46,567 nucleotides of DNA from Phycisphaera sp. (GTDB lineage Bacteria; Planctomycetota; Phycisphaerae; Phycisphaerales; SM1A02): positions 69,693 to 116,259 of the forward strand of contig WGMP01000011.1 of NCBI GenBank assembly GCA_016124975.1, given 5' to 3'. The translations under genes were made by a program, and so were the position numbers. Below the pieces are notes generated by a model, which was not told the DNA's origin, made no database searches, and saw only the letters and a program-made list of their open reading frames with translations. This document shows positions 2,840-12,168 of the stretch, piece after piece (position 1 is the first letter of the stretch; every line of letters begins with the position of its first letter).

Positions 2840-3592
2840 ATGGCGCCCCCGCTTCCACCTCAACTCATCCTGCGGCCGACGGGTCGCGACTTTCCCGCAG
2901 GACTCGTGCTGAGCGAGTACGACGCGCGCCATCGGCATCACATCGCGGCCGATCGCGCGCATCTCCCCGATGAGGAACGCGCGCTCGCGGAGACGCTGCG
3001 CTCCGAGCAACGGAGGATCGGCTTCCTGGCGGGCCGCATCGCGCTGCGCTCTGCGTTCGCGGCGCTCGACCCCGCGCTCGTTCCTGGCGCCGTGCTGCGC
3101 GACGCGCGCGGCCGTCCGCACGCAGACTGGAGCGGCGCCCCGCGCATCTCGATCGCGCACACGCGCGTGCGTGCGGTTGCGGCGGCCGCGCCGCTCGGCG
3201 CCTGCGCTGCGATCGGCGTCGATGTCGAGGAACTCGACGCGCACCGCGCACATGCGCTCGTGCGCATGTCGCTCTCGACGGACGAAGCGGCGCGCGTGCG
3301 CGCGACGGACCCGGCGATGCTCGCGGGCCCGATCGCGCTCTGGTGCGCGCGCGAGGCGTGCGTCAAGGCGTTTGCGCTCGAAGTCGGCTGGTTCGGGACG
3401 GCGCTCGTGGCCACGCGCTTCGAGTCGTGCGACCCACCCGCCGCCGACGCCGTGCGTGCGTGGCGCGTGGAGATCGCGTTCGAGTCGCACGAGGCCATGC
3501 GGGCGATCGCGTGGGAGTCGCGCGGCGCGGTGTTCGCGTTCGCCTTCGATTCCCGCGCCCGAGTCAATGACGAAGCCGCGGCGCGTCCCTGA
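2840..3592 (+). CDS. 4'-phosphopantetheinyl transferase (Sfp/AcpT type)
   Basis: This 250-residue enzyme moves the 4'-phosphopantetheine arm of coenzyme A onto a serine of acyl or peptidyl carrier proteins. The family motifs are present: FLAGRIALRSA (about 62-72), PRISIAHT (101-108), the Mg-binding IGVDVEEL (125-132) and WCAREACVKAF (168-178), where R171 stands in place of the usual Lys of WxxKEAxxK. It follows the methyltransferase by 7 bases. Its 3' end overlaps the convergent RuvC-like gene by 29 bases. No polyketide or peptide synthetase is in the window, so the partner carrier protein is unknown. Confidence 0.85.
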   Translation: MAPPLPPQLILRPTGRDFPAGLVLSEYDARHRHHIAADRAHLPDEERALAETLRSEQRRIGFLAGRIALRSAFAALDPALVPGAVLRDARGRPHADWSGAPRISIAHTRVRAVAAAAPLGACAAIGVDVEELDAHRAHALVRMSLSTDEAARVRATDPAMLAGPIALWCAREACVKAFALEVGWFGTALVATRFESCDPPAADAVRAWRVEIAFESHEAMRAIAWESRGAVFAFAFDSRARVNDEAAARP

Positions 3593-4214
3593 GCCAGCCC
3601 GCCTCGATCACGCCGAAGAGCCCGACGAGGATCGCCTCCGCGGCGTCGTGACCAAGCTGCGCGGTCACGCCCCTCGTCTCGCTCCACTCGATGACCTGCG
3701 CGGCGAGCTTCAGCGCATGCGCCTTCGCCTGCGCGCCGTCGCGCCGCTCGCGCTCGTACAGGAACATGCGCCGCCACTCCCCCGCCTGCACGACGCGCAG
3801 ATGGATGCCGCGGTGCGCCGCGGCCTTCTGCCAGCTCTCCGCGAGATCCCCTCCGCCCTCGACGATGACGCTGTGGACATGGGGAATCTCGTCGAGGATC
3901 GAGGCCGCGGCCGCCCGCAGCGCGTCCTTCGACTGAAAGCGGCGCGACCGAACTCCCTCGAGGCGTCCATCGCGGTTGTAGATGGCGAACGCCGTCGCGA
4001 GCCCGAGATCGATTCCGATGAAGCGCGACTTCTCCCCGAGGACCCGCGGCGCTGTGGCCCGGAGCGCCTCCGCGGAACGCGAGAGCCCCGCGTCCTTGCG
4101 CCGCTCCTCTGCCTCGAGGCGCTCGGCGGCGGCGGCACGCTCCGACTTGGGCGGCGTGCGCCGGCCCCACTTCGGTTCGCTCCTGCCGTCCGACTCGCGA
4201 TCGCGTCGACCCAT
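3564..4214 (-). CDS. RuvC-like (RNase H-fold) nuclease, putative Holliday-junction resolvase
   Basis: The 216-residue protein has a charged N-terminal extension (residues 1-62, rich in Arg, Glu and Ala) and a RuvC/RNase H-fold core. Candidate metal ligands are D69 in FIGIDLGLAT, E119 in SVIVEGGGD, and H189/D190/E193 in LGHDAAEAILVG. Their order and spacing fit the D-E-(H/D)xxD pattern of RuvC. This suggests a two-metal endonuclease acting on branched DNA, but canonical RuvC is shorter at the N-terminus and usually sits with ruvA/ruvB, which are absent here. The start at 4214 has no Shine-Dalgarno; a TACCCT box (4226-4221) six bases upstream suggests a leaderless message. Longer in-frame extension to 4517 would cross the divergent leader region and is unlikely. 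Confidence 0.65.
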   Translation of the reverse strand: MGRRDRESDGRSEPKWGRRTPPKSERAAAAERLEAEERRKDAGLSRSAEALRATAPRVLGEKSRFIGIDLGLATAFAIYNRDGRLEGVRSRRFQSKDALRAAAASILDEIPHVHSVIVEGGGDLAESWQKAAAHRGIHLRVVQAGEWRRMFLYERERRDGAQAKAHALKLAAQVIEWSETRGVTAQLGHDAAEAILVGLFGVIEAGWLRDAPRLRH

Positions 4215-4273
4215 GTCGCGAGGGTACACGGGTGCGCAGCGCGGGGGTTCACGCGGAAAATCGAGCCGCTCGC

Positions 4274-4301
4274 TTGACTTCCGAGCGACCGCCCGTATGC
4301 T
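4274..4301 (+). promoter_or_regulatory. Promoter of the His-rich leader and downstream gene
   Basis: TTGACT (4274-4279) and TATGCT (4296-4301) are separated by 16 bases, the clearest sigma-70-type promoter in the window. Transcription would begin about 4308, only a few bases before the leader ATG at 4311, so the leader peptide would be translated from an almost leaderless mRNA. Confidence 0.7.
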
Positions 4302-4310
4302 CCCGCCTTC

Positions 4311-4403
4311 ATGAACCGCCAGCAGGTCATCAAGTGCCACGCGATGCACATGCACATGCCCAAGCATGTGTGTGGTCTCGCGCCGGCACTTGGATCCCGC
4401 TGA
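4311..4403 (+). CDS. 30-residue His/Met-rich leader peptide (putative attenuator)
   Basis: A short ORF with sequence MNRQQVIKCHAMHMHMPKHV followed by CGLAPALGSR and a TGA. It has four His codons (residues 10, 13, 15, 19), four Met and two Cys in 30 residues. A strong promoter ends ten bases before it, and a GC-rich hairpin with a T tract follows its stop by about 22 bases. The layout is that of an amino-acid-biosynthesis attenuator such as hisL, and the start MNRQQ-x-IK resembles enterobacterial HisL peptides. The downstream gene has a HisC-like fold, which supports the reading. Alternatives are a Met or Cys sensor, or a small metal-binding peptide with its own terminator. No Shine-Dalgarno is seen. 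Confidence 0.55.
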   Translation: MNRQQVIKCHAMHMHMPKHVCGLAPALGSR

Positions 4404-4460
4404 ACGGCCTTCTCCGTTCCACCCAAGACGCCGGCCCGAGCGCCGGCGTCTGTCGCTTTT
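4380..4460 (+). terminator. Attenuator: terminator hairpin with competing upstream segment
   Basis: The arms AGACGCCGGC (4426-4435) and GCCGGCGTCT (4442-4451) form a perfect 10-bp stem with a 6-base loop. TTTT follows at 4457-4460. The segment GCGCCGGC at 4380-4387, inside the last codons of the leader, is identical to 4440-4447 at the right arm, so its GCCGGC can pair with the left arm instead and block the terminator. A ribosome stalled on the His codons (4338-4367) would leave this segment free; one reaching the stop codon would cover it. The T tract starts six bases after the stem, so the terminator may be moderate. Confidence 0.6.
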
Positions 4461-4544
4461 CGGCTTTCGAAAGGGACGCGCGGCGCAGGAATCCGGCGGA
4501 AAGAGCCCGAAAGGCACGCCATGAGTTCCGGCAGGAGTTTCAAC

Positions 4545-5393
4545 ATGAGTTCCAGCACGCTTGCAGTCGAGCTTCCCGCATCGGATCGCCCAACGACCGA
4601 GGCCACCCTCATCCAGTCCGTCGTCGATGTCTCGACGCCCCGAGTCGCGCGCCCCGCGCGCGTCGCGCTCGTCGCACGGCTCGCGGCGCGGATCTCGGCA
4701 TCCACGCGGGAGGTCGCGCCGTTCGCAACGGTCGATCGCGCCGTCGACTCCATCGCCGACCGATTCTTCCGCGGCAGGCGCGTGGCGATCGCGGAGCCCG
4801 TCGCGCGCCGCATCGGCGCCAGCGCCCGCAGGCTCGCGGACTGCGTGATTGCTGCGGATTGGCGCGATGCGTGGGCCGACGCCACGCGTGGAACCGCGCA
4901 GGCAGCCGCCTTCGACGGTCTCGTCCGCGCCGCGCAGGATGCGGACACGCTCGTTCTCACGAGTCCGTTCATCGCGGAGGACGGCGCGGCGGCGGCGTTC
5001 TCGCCGCGCGACCTGCTGCGGCTGCGTGCGCGGGCGCCGAAGCCCGTTCTCGTGCTCGACCTCGTCGACGAGGATCTCGCGCGGGCGCCACTCACGCAGG
5101 CGGCGCTCCTCATTCCAGGAACCGTCATTCTCCGAGGCTTCGGCAGACTCTGGCGCGACGCGGGCGCGAACGCGGCCGCGGACCTCGGGTTCGTGGCCGG
5201 CGCACCCGAGCTCGTCGCGGCGCTTTCCGCACGAGTCGCGCGCGACGGCGCGGACGGCGGCGTGGGCGATGGCGCGGAGTCGGTGGATGAGGAACTTGCG
5301 GCCGCCGCGGTCCGAGACCTCGATCGGGCGGGAATCGAGCGCGCCGTGCAGGAAGCCGCAACGCGCACACGGGTGCCCTTCCGCGGGGACTAA
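4545..5393 (+). CDS. Degenerate, truncated class I aminotransferase-like (HisC/CobC-like) protein
   Basis: This 282-residue protein matches the order of the fold-type I PLP aminotransferase core. DTLVLTSPFIAEDG (about 134-147) takes the place of the NPNNPTG loop, PVLVLDLVDEDL (167-178) that of the VVDEAY strand, and TVILRGFGRLW...LGFVAGAPELVAAL (193-227) that of the RSFSK...GLRLGF segment. The residues that bind PLP appear lost: R201 stands where the Schiff-base lysine is expected, and the Asn of the loop and the Tyr of DEAY are replaced. The C-terminal small domain is also missing. I infer a non-catalytic or decaying paralogue, perhaps regulatory. AGGAG eight bases upstream favours 4545; an ATG at 4521 with AAGG is the alternative. 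It lies behind the His-rich leader and attenuator. Confidence 0.5.
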   Translation: MSSSTLAVELPASDRPTTEATLIQSVVDVSTPRVARPARVALVARLAARISASTREVAPFATVDRAVDSIADRFFRGRRVAIAEPVARRIGASARRLADCVIAADWRDAWADATRGTAQAAAFDGLVRAAQDADTLVLTSPFIAEDGAAAAFSPRDLLRLRARAPKPVLVLDLVDEDLARAPLTQAALLIPGTVILRGFGRLWRDAGANAAADLGFVAGAPELVAALSARVARDGADGGVGDGAESVDEELAAAAVRDLDRAGIERAVQEAATRTRVPFRGD

Positions 5394-6492: not shown

Positions 6493-6565
<73 letters not shown>

Positions 6566-6584
6566 CTGTGTCTCGAGAAACGCG

Positions 6585-10727: not shown

Positions 10728-11790
10728 GCATGATCGCGAGATCCTGCGCATTCACGGTGCCGTCGCCGTTGAGGTCTCCTGCGGCGCCGTCCCACAGGTT
10801 GAGGAGTGTGGCGAGGTCGGACGCCGACACGACGCCATCGAGATCGAGATCCGCGGGGCAAGGATTGCCGCCGCCGCCGGAGCCGAGCTCGACCACCGCG
10901 AGGTGCGGGAATCCGCCGCCCGCGTTGTTGATGTCGTTCCAGCGGCCGTTTGAACCGAGCAGCTCCGCGTAGTGCTCGACGCCTCCCGAGTTGTTCGGCT
11001 CCCCGCCGTTCCAGTTGGTGTACTTCGCGGGCGAGCCGTCGGTCCACTCCCAGCTGCCCTCCGAGGCGAGGTCGTTGAAGCCGATCCAGATGCGACGGTC
11101 GACGCCGCCAAGATTGCCGAAGTTGCCGTGGACGAAGTCCTGCTCGGCCTGGTCGTTGATCGAGACGAGGTGGCCTCCCAACGCGACCGCGAGCGCCTCG
11201 GACGCTGTCCAGGTTGTGCCCGCGACAGCGACATAGCGGATGCCGGTCGAGGGGTCCGTGATGTCGCCGAGGAGCGGCAGCGCGCCGATCGTGATGGTGC
11301 CCGATCCGAAGCCCGTCGCGCCGAAGGCTCCGAGGCGGACGAGGTAGGTCTCGCCCGCGGTCGCAGTGAAGCTGACGCGGGTCTGCAGCGAGCAGTTGTC
11401 GTCGGAGCAGGCGATCACAGGCGCGCTGCAGTCTGCGCCGCCGTAGATCGCGATCTTCGAGTCGAGCGTCGTCTGCGCGCAGGTCGACACCTCGACGACG
11501 AAGGTCTCGGGCGCGGTGAAGCGGAACCACACGTCGTTGAAGATGTTCTGGTTGCTGAAGAAGTTGCAGAGGACATCGGCCGCGCCGTCGGTCGTGGCGC
11601 CGTTCGTGTCGAAGGCGTAGGTGCCGTAGCTCTTCAGGGGCTCGGCGGAGGCGCAGTCGTCGGCGCCTTGCGCGAGTGCCGAGGAGCCTGCGCCGAGCGA
11701 AAGGCAGAGTGCGACGACGAAGGAGCCGAAGACGGACGGGCCAGCGACCACGCCGTGGGCGCGGGCGACGCTGCGGGGAGAACTCGACAT
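10702..11790 (-). CDS. Secreted C-type-lectin-like protein with dockerin-like repeats
   Basis: This 362-residue protein has a signal peptide cleaved near SSALAQ (about residue 41). Residues 42-175 form a beta domain typical of secreted planctomycete proteins (DDCASAEPL...WFRFTAPETF...IAIYGGADCSAPVIACSDDNC). Residues about 185-310 are a C-type-lectin-like fold (WTASEALAVALGGHLVSIND, IWIGFNDLASEGSWEWTDGS, YTNWNGGEPNN, LAVVELG). Two calcium-loop repeats end the protein (PADLDLDGVVSASDLATLLN and GDLNGDGTVNAQDLAIMLNS, then WGDCP). GAGG about nine bases upstream of 11790 supports the start. Its upstream region is the heptanucleotide repeat. Carbohydrate or protein binding outside the cell is likely. 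Confidence 0.85.
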   Translation of the reverse strand: MSSSPRSVARAHGVVAGPSVFGSFVVALCLSLGAGSSALAQGADDCASAEPLKSYGTYAFDTNGATTDGAADVLCNFFSNQNIFNDVWFRFTAPETFVVEVSTCAQTTLDSKIAIYGGADCSAPVIACSDDNCSLQTRVSFTATAGETYLVRLGAFGATGFGSGTITIGALPLLGDITDPSTGIRYVAVAGTTWTASEALAVALGGHLVSINDQAEQDFVHGNFGNLGGVDRRIWIGFNDLASEGSWEWTDGSPAKYTNWNGGEPNNSGGVEHYAELLGSNGRWNDINNAGGGFPHLAVVELGSGGGGNPCPADLDLDGVVSASDLATLLNLWDGAAGDLNGDGTVNAQDLAIMLNSWGDCP

Positions 11791-11813
11791 GATGGGACCT
11801 CGCGGCAAGTGGA

Positions 11814-11960
11814 CTTGGGACTCGGGACTTCGGACTTCGGACTTGGGACTCGGGACTCGGGACTTGGGACTCGGGACTTGGGACTCGGGACTCGGGACTT
11901 GGGACTCGGGACTTGGGACTCGGGACTCGGGACTTGGGACTCGGGGCTCGGGGCTCGCCG
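11814..11960. repeat. 7-bp repeat CTYGGGA, about 21 units, with a 35-bp higher-order period
   Basis: Units CTTGGGA (T) and CTCGGGA (C) run head to tail from 11814, with two CTTCGGA variants early and CTCGGGG/CTCGCCG decay at the end. From 11842 the order T-C-C-T-C repeats three times, giving a 35-base higher-order unit. The array lies between two divergent genes (starts 11790 and 12169) and just upstream of the lectin-like gene. Reading frames through it give SPESQVP-type artefacts. The 208 bases from 11961 to 12168 show no gene and no clear promoter. Confidence 0.95.
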
Positions 11961-12168
11961 CTCGCGACCCTCGCGGGCCGCCGCGCGGCGGCAGAAGAGG
12001 ACAGATTCGCCAATTCCGCCGCGAATGCAAGGAAAATCTCCACAGACGCCACTCCCCGCCGTCTCTCGCACAACGCTGAGGCGGCGCGGGCGCGAGGATT
12101 TCGTCAAGAACCCGCGGCGCGCGGCGGTTCCTTGCAATGGAGCGCGTGGCCGGCGCGTTTCCGTGCCG

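Follow-up and report, generated by a model that had tools for sequence, protein, structure and literature searches.

A candidate his-type transcription attenuator, probably older than the loss of histidine synthesis, precedes a HisC-derived pseudoenzyme gene in a planctomycete genus

Attenuators are commonly described as devices by which biosynthetic operons regulate themselves through feedback. In the portions of the literature drawn on here, attenuator theory is treated in PMC1183508, His attenuators are reported from Proteobacteria and some Firmicutes (PMC9413887), and a His-leader ORF upstream of hisD has been excluded in Corynebacterium glutamicum (PMC3896937). The hisL leader of E. coli and Salmonella combines a short ORF carrying regulatory His codons, alternative terminator and antiterminator structures, and a terminator before the first gene, according to the relevant parts of PMC3896937 and PMC9413887, and these features recur at the locus described below. 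Outside the Proteobacteria, the sections of PMC9413887 on the his operons of the Bacillus cereus group, Eubacteriales and Erysipelotrichales likewise describe leader peptides with His codons, terminators and antiterminators, and the same source describes T-box (His) leaders upstream of his genes as another kind of sensor of tRNA-His charging. Neither the main text of PMC9413887 nor that of PMC3766115 has a word starting with 'planctomyc', and a literature search on planctomycete attenuators, His auxotrophy and HisC pseudoenzymes, judged by abstracts and with subscription papers mostly outside its reach, returned no paper describing the locus.

We analyzed a locus in a 46,567-nucleotide stretch of DNA (hereafter the window) from a freshwater planctomycete whose 3.61-Mb genome is assembled in 59 contigs at 97.6% completeness. 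An initial annotation, made from the letters of the window, had proposed that ribosomes stalling at His codons of a short leader open a downstream gene. Our comparisons support that proposal, though the antiterminator needs correction and the biological setting differs: with fair confidence, we read the locus as a ribosome-mediated his-type transcription attenuator that has outlived the histidine pathway and now stands before a HisC pseudoenzyme.

The features of the locus all lie on the plus strand. A promoter-like element (4274-4301) can be read directly, with a -35 box TTGACT (4274-4279), a 16-base spacer and a -10 box TATGCT (4296-4301), just as first annotated. Nine bases separate the -10 box from the ATG of the leader ORF (4311-4403, stop at 4401-4403), and its 30 codons, MNRQQVIKCHAMHMHMPKHVCGLAPALGSR, do contain the four His in ten residues noted at the outset (positions 10, 13, 15 and 19), along with Met at 12, 14 and 16 besides the start. 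Four pairing regions follow from the folds. Region 1, TCAAGTGCC (4330-4338), is the predicted partner of region 2 when the leader is untranslated, as indicated by minimum-energy folds and by a comparison of cognate with swapped 1:2 arms (weak in 3 of 11 loci). Region 2, GCCGGC-A-CTTGG (4382-4393), is the antiterminator arm within the last leader codons, and its bases 4385-4393 pair with region 1 too. A small hairpin, AACGG/CCGTT (4403-4418), overlaps the leader stop inside the antiterminator loop, and its TGAA is invariant in the alignment. Region 3, CCAAG-AC-GCCGGC (4423-4435), comprises the left arm of the terminator and its 5' flank and can pair with either region 2 or region 4; the GACGCCGGC motif is invariant in all 11 loci. 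Region 4, GCCGGCGTCT with GTCGC and TTTT (4442-4460), supplies an intrinsic-terminator-like right arm and T run.

The terminator reads as originally claimed, with a 10-bp stem (4426-4435/4442-4451) 22 bases past the leader stop and TTTT at 4457-4460, beginning 5 bases after the stem. The claimed copy of the terminator arm stands in part: GCGCCGGC at 4380-4387 does repeat 4440-4447, but the alternative pairing is not the 8 bp envisaged. In the fold, the antiterminator instead consists of GCCGGC (4382-4387) paired with 4430-4435 plus CTTGG (4389-4393) paired with CCAAG (4423-4427), and this extension, absent from the initial annotation, holds much of the comparative signal described below. The pseudo-HisC gene (4545-5393, 282 aa) had been given a start at 4521; we consider 4545 more probable since AGGAG precedes that ATG. 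On the other side of the leader, a divergent neighbor (3567-4229, minus strand) has sub-threshold Pfam matches only (Y2_Tnp, 8.5e-4; DUF460, 0.07). Elsewhere in the window, a repetitive stretch at 11789-12079 has one frame that translates as repeated LGTRDSGLGTWDSGL, an odd ORF translation.

The arrangement exceeds what chance would give. The two strands of the window together hold 237 ATG-to-stop readings of 15-45 codons; 2 of these have at least four His in ten residues, and of the two only the leader at 4311 precedes a terminator-like hairpin, compared with means of 0.1 His-rich short ORFs and 0.0 with a hairpin behind them in 20 block shuffles. The RNA from 4311 to 4460 folds at -75.1 kcal/mol (z -6.57), a value matched by 0 of 200 shuffles. 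Rfam searches of the window at the gathering score returned tRNA only, with no T-box match, and RF00514 (His leader) was not matched up to E 5 in seven loci including that of the window, where again only tRNA scored above gathering.

These elements suggest a mechanism of the following kind. Transcription would start at, or a few bases from, the leader ATG. With charged tRNA-His plentiful, the ribosome would reach the stop codon and cover region 2, allowing regions 3 and 4 to form the terminator and ending the RNA near 4460. When tRNA-His is uncharged, the ribosome would stall on a His codon, leaving region 2 free to pair with region 3 and letting the pseudo-HisC gene be transcribed. A leader that is not translated would let region 1 hold region 2, giving termination by default.

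We searched for the protein encoded downstream in an initial 61 genomes and then in 181 genomes of the window's family, 16 of which make up its genus. The gene was found in 11 of the 181, all within the genus, and in each it lies directly behind a leader, so that the upstream region of all 11 contains a promoter, a short His-rich ORF, an arm copy, a TGA and a GACGCCGGC terminator. The initial annotation had named orthologous loci lacking the short ORF or its His codons as evidence against it; an ORF of 28-41 codons with 3-9 His is present in all 11 fully readable loci, and a terminator hairpin with a T run stands between leader and gene. Across the aligned upstream regions TTGAC is invariant and the -10 box is TAnnnT throughout; the T run is interrupted in two genomes (G004 and G013). 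The near-leaderless layout, which had been flagged as unusual for an attenuator peptide, recurs by eye in 9 of 11 orthologous leaders, with the ATG 7-10 bases past the -10 box (24 bases in G010, 27 in G003), and in several his operons of the family. A sequence related to the 6-base core of region 2 is found in all 11 leaders at a fixed distance from the stop codon, with an exact GC[C/T]GGC in seven.

A twelfth genus genome (G002) has its leader at a contig edge with the gene beyond view, and in another four (G007, G009, G014 and G015) neither gene nor leader was found by protein and covariance-model searches; a weak protein match in G014:C256 from the 61-genome search (E 6.8e-4) did not reach E 1e-5 in the family-wide one. 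A further scan of assembled contigs yielded 10 loci, each among those already described, and no additional species. The covariance model of the leader (R1), which was not used to count leaders, matched 56 of 181 family genomes at E 0.1. We inspected eight matches ranking below the 11 orthologues: that in G002 is the contig-edge leader of the same kind, those in G004:C27, G025 and G024 are his-operon leaders, and those in G014, G147 and G023 proved to be plain terminators behind other genes. The eighth, in G117 (L149, 4313-4785, minus strand), is a near-leaderless leader-like ORF, MTQRTMHLAPTTISCVCTVRHRPVSLLMQRTP, then a GACGCCGGC-type hairpin and then a gene, possibly a further attenuator of the family.

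Downstream of pseudo-HisC, and on its strand, is a tRNA-Gly (CCC) gene (6493-6566 in the window). As far as the fetched stretches reach, eight of the 10 other loci have it too; it overlaps the end of pseudo-HisC in G010 and starts less than 200 bases after it in G003, G005, G011 and G012. Readthrough at the attenuator might feed this tRNA as well.

Pairing between the regions is conserved on average across the 11 leaders. Most folds bring the last codons of the ORF together with a stretch near its start, and the His and Met codons fall in between. Loss of the antiterminator pairing among orthologues had been proposed as a ground for rejection; once the upstream part and the right arm are left out of the fold, all 11 leaders form the 2:3 pairing, with flank pairs that differ (for example CTTGG:CCAAG in G000 and CGGGT:ACCCG in G010). 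On average, swapping arms between genomes weakens the pairing: cognate arms do better for 2:3 (p 2.5e-4), 1:2 (p 2.5e-4), the 2:3 flanks alone (p 7e-4) and the base of the 3:4 stem (p 1.1e-3), all with relatedness ignored, and omission of the near relative G006 leaves p values of 1.0e-3 (2:3 flanks), 1.5e-3 (1:2) and 8.1e-3 (3:4). Mutually exclusive 1:2, 2:3 and 3:4 pairings are kept on average; in three of the 11 genomes (G005, G011 and G003) cognate 1:2 pairing falls below the swapped mean, and in G008 cognate 2:3 pairing is no better than its swapped mean. A genome's own partner was the best partner in just 5 of 11 cases for 2:3 and 3 of 11 for 1:2, and tests of the arm copy in single genomes were weak (codon-shuffle p 0.001-0.22). 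The initial annotation had counted covarying stems as support; RNAalifold found 3 of 16 pairs changed on both sides. At the base of the terminator stem, one pair is C-G in seven leaders and A-U in four.

His is the commonest residue of these orphan leaders (53/362, 14.6%), and its placement fits the proposed geometry. In eight of the 11 leaders, region 2 is preceded by a His codon at a distance of exactly 4 codons, a count that residue shuffles reach at any position with a frequency of 0.0018 (relatedness ignored). The nearest upstream His codon in the other three is at -6, -6 and -7; G010 has a further His codon at -2, and G005, G011 and G003 have an additional one past region 2. Since the ribosome covers ~12 nt downstream of the translated codon, according to the part of PMC4833913 relied on here, -4 is about the last codon at which a stalled ribosome would leave region 2 free, and we suggest that stalling occurs at this His codon.

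A similar arrangement is found at the family's own his operons. Twelve of 181 family genomes have hisB, and hisG could be located in ten of them (G063 and G099 were left out of the leader count, with no hisG motif in the fetched stretch). All ten have a leader ORF and then a hairpin before hisG, and their leader ORFs have 20-28 codons with 5-7 His each (63 of 226 residues). In a simple scan both G098 and G114 had a T-poor hairpin, and that of G098 was also weak. The best partner of the hairpin's left arm starts 1-5 codons past the last His, as judged by raw pairing uncorrected for chance. Given this His-rich leader and hairpin before hisG in 10 of 10 operons, the window's switch seems to derive from a his attenuator that many his operons of the family share. 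Its derived features look to be the interspersed Met codons and the pseudo-HisC target.

The Met codons raise the strongest alternative, that methionine, or His and Met jointly, is sensed, with alternating codons stalling the ribosome when either amino acid runs short. Met is nearly as common as His in the orphan leaders (44/362, 12%) and accounts for 3 of 226 residues (1%) in the family's his-operon leaders, so Met has probably been gained. MetX (TIGR01392) was found in 0 of 16 genus genomes, making Met auxotrophy possible, but the model matched just 7 of 14 control genomes and the search was limited to MetX, missing users of MetA. Against methionine sensing, single or joint, Met is less fixed relative to region 2 than His is (best 7 of 11, at -11), three genomes have it at -1, from where a stalled ribosome would cover region 2, and the CATG repeats that encode it also form the leader hairpin, which would account for the Met codons without any sensing. 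We therefore regard a methionine signal as possible and rather doubtful. We would give similar, limited credence to a broader scenario in which, once the pathway was lost, the his leader stayed together with a pared-down HisC and the pair was rebuilt into a dual His/Met starvation alarm with the pseudoenzyme as its output.

The setting of the switch is a genus that appears to have lost most of histidine synthesis. Its genomes are drafts, nine of the 16 (G005 among them) reaching 90% completeness or more with contamination of 5% or less. hisB and hisD were each found in 1 of 16, and none of the nine well-complete genomes has either gene. HisA/HisF matches above 100 bits occur in two genomes, two in G004 and one in G005. 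The PF00977 cut-off was passed by 6 of 16, and of six weak PF00977 matches (27-38 bits) the five scanned are IMP dehydrogenase, the sixth lying in G015. The G005 gene (G005:C219, L152; 203 bits) has a class I glutamine amidotransferase next to it and a glycosyltransferase nearby, and lies outside a his operon within the fetched stretch; it resembles the HisF/HisH paralogues of surface-polysaccharide clusters, and is perhaps such a paralogue. TIGR01141 says little about whether hisC is absent: none of the genus genomes reaches its cut-off, with best scores of ~94-104 bits except in G003 (256) and G004 (237), and the HisC proteins of the family's own operons (216-237 bits) fall below it too. Pathway loss was therefore judged on hisB, hisD and hisA/F, and most members of the genus are probably histidine auxotrophs. 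G003 also has a HisC-like aminotransferase gene (L056, 1483-2562, minus strand) with NNP and SKAFGMAG motifs, the source of its 256-bit score, with no his gene noticed adjoining it in the fetched stretch.

The exception is G004, which has a contig (G004:C27), possibly a contaminant, on which a leader, MNASALHHRHHHHHAKCGCR, stands before hisG, hisC, hisB, two hisA/F genes and hisD. The G+C content of this contig equals that of the pseudo-HisC locus. Since G004 holds both the pseudo-HisC locus and a his-operon contig, descent of the locus as a relic of a lost operon and descent as a paralogue are inseparable.

The encoded protein is a HisC derivative, in keeping with its first description as a degenerate aminotransferase-like protein; profile search, alignment and the neighborhoods of the matching HisC genes agree on this. 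Sequence searches of Pfam, NCBIfam and PDB with the window protein named no family, and TIGR01141 was not among the NCBIfam matches of 11 members at E 10. We set aside weak matches of single members to Pfam (Sua5, LSDAT_prok and ParB_C, 1 of 11 each) and to NCBIfam SF-CC1 (1 of 11); the other weak NCBIfam matches, PtaA (2 of 11) and CobD (1 of 11), are PLP enzymes. A profile search of the 181 family genomes gave five weak matches outside the genus (E 1.4e-8 to 1.8e-6), all of them HisC genes beside hisG: those of G120, G113 and G024 sit between hisG and hisB, and those of G154 and G155 follow a hisG reading frame. The hisG genes of G120 and G024 pass the hisG cut-off, and TIGR01141 is the best model, below its cut-off, for the HisC of G120, G113, G024, G025 and the G004 operon. 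On our reading, pseudo-HisC descends from the HisC of the family's hisG-hisC-hisB operon, with only the large domain kept and the catalytic lysine lost.

Alignment sets DLAYxEFA...LPNxxVxRTFSKAxGLAGLRxG of HisC against DLxxEx...PLTQxAxLxPxTxxxRGFGxxWxxxGA of the window family, which keeps the Asp of the DLAY motif and is without the Lys, the NNPTG motif and the Tyr. SKxxGLAG is the motif with the PLP-binding lysine of HisC, and at the corresponding column the 11 sequences have R, Q, E, A, D, L or S. Gaps stand opposite most of the HisC C-terminal part. The predicted structure (pLDDT 85, pTM 0.81) contains a fold type I large domain related to HisC: the top PDB matches in Foldseek are mostly HisC (best 9.1e-11), and a VIA comparison with 4r8d_B gave Z 20.4 and rmsd 2.5 over 207 aligned residues. 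HisC large domains head the VIA list as well, but other class I aminotransferases score within ~1 Z of them, and identification as HisC therefore needs more than the fold.

All 11 pseudo-HisC genes have uninterrupted reading frames, their PLTQ and RGFG motifs are invariant, and dN/dS ranges from 0.16 to 0.58 among the 12 closest of 55 pairs, at partial saturation of synonymous sites. From dN/dS and the intact frames, the gene looks like a maintained pseudoenzyme under constraint and not a free-running pseudogene. These observations, together with the retained pairing regions, bear on a second alternative, that the locus is a decaying relic of a lost his operon with no present function; the absence of hisB and hisD from 15 of 16 genus genomes and the four genomes with neither gene nor leader fit such decay, which we nevertheless judge unlikely given the constraint. 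Pseudo-HisC is very unlikely to act as an aminotransferase; given its proposed regulation and lost active site, it would most likely serve as a histidine-starvation effector or protein partner in bacteria that import histidine.

Less probable still is that the nascent peptide, rich in His, Met, Cys and Lys, is itself a sensor, for instance of copper or another soft metal, whose binding stalls or releases the ribosome. The HMHMHM and KHMxKHM runs of the leaders, and their composition, resemble those of metal-binding peptides, but the his-operon leaders at the same place are His-rich and not Met-rich and the target is HisC-derived, both of which indicate histidine. Least credible of all is a structured small RNA ending at the terminator, with an incidental ORF and an independent downstream gene: it would suit the locus's own promoter, terminator and very stable fold, but not the open ORF in all 11 loci, the region-2 copy at a fixed distance from the stop, the strong His enrichment, the same gene behind every complete leader or the similar arrangement before hisG in relatives.

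If the dual His/Met alarm considered above is real, it would mean that attenuation operates in an auxotroph, sensing through codons of two kinds and acting through a pseudoenzyme. Our data extend His-leader attenuation, as a prediction, to a planctomycete family, and the sensor appears here to persist past the pathway, with a former biosynthetic enzyme lacking its active site as the only protein gene directly behind it. This raises two testable questions: whether regulatory RNAs are exapted after pathway loss, and what job an aminotransferase pseudoenzyme has in a bacterium dependent on imported histidine.

Compared with T-box (His) leaders as the relevant part of PMC9413887 presents them, the window's leader would share the sensing of tRNA-His charging but has a His-rich ORF in place of a T-box match at the gathering score. 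Its target shares with HisC (4r8d, 1fg3, 3cq5; TIGR01141) the fold of the large domain, the family's HisC proteins as nearest relatives and the Asp of DLAY, and differs in having variable residues for the PLP lysine, in the loss of NNPTG and Tyr, and in the absence of the C-terminal small domain. Unlike hisL, the window's leader is near-leaderless, intersperses its His codons with Met instead of arranging them in a run and has no Rfam match, and it precedes a HisC-derived pseudoenzyme in hosts without most of the pathway. The initial annotation had noted that the gene was not part of a his operon, and indeed pseudo-HisC occupies the place of a histidine-making operon; the amino acid that would be sensed is a product of the relatives' hisG operons and not of the gene regulated here. 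The leaders of the Firmicutes type, in the sections of PMC9413887 cited above, stand before his operons, whereas this planctomycete family has the design before hisG and the window's copy appears to be its orphan derivative.
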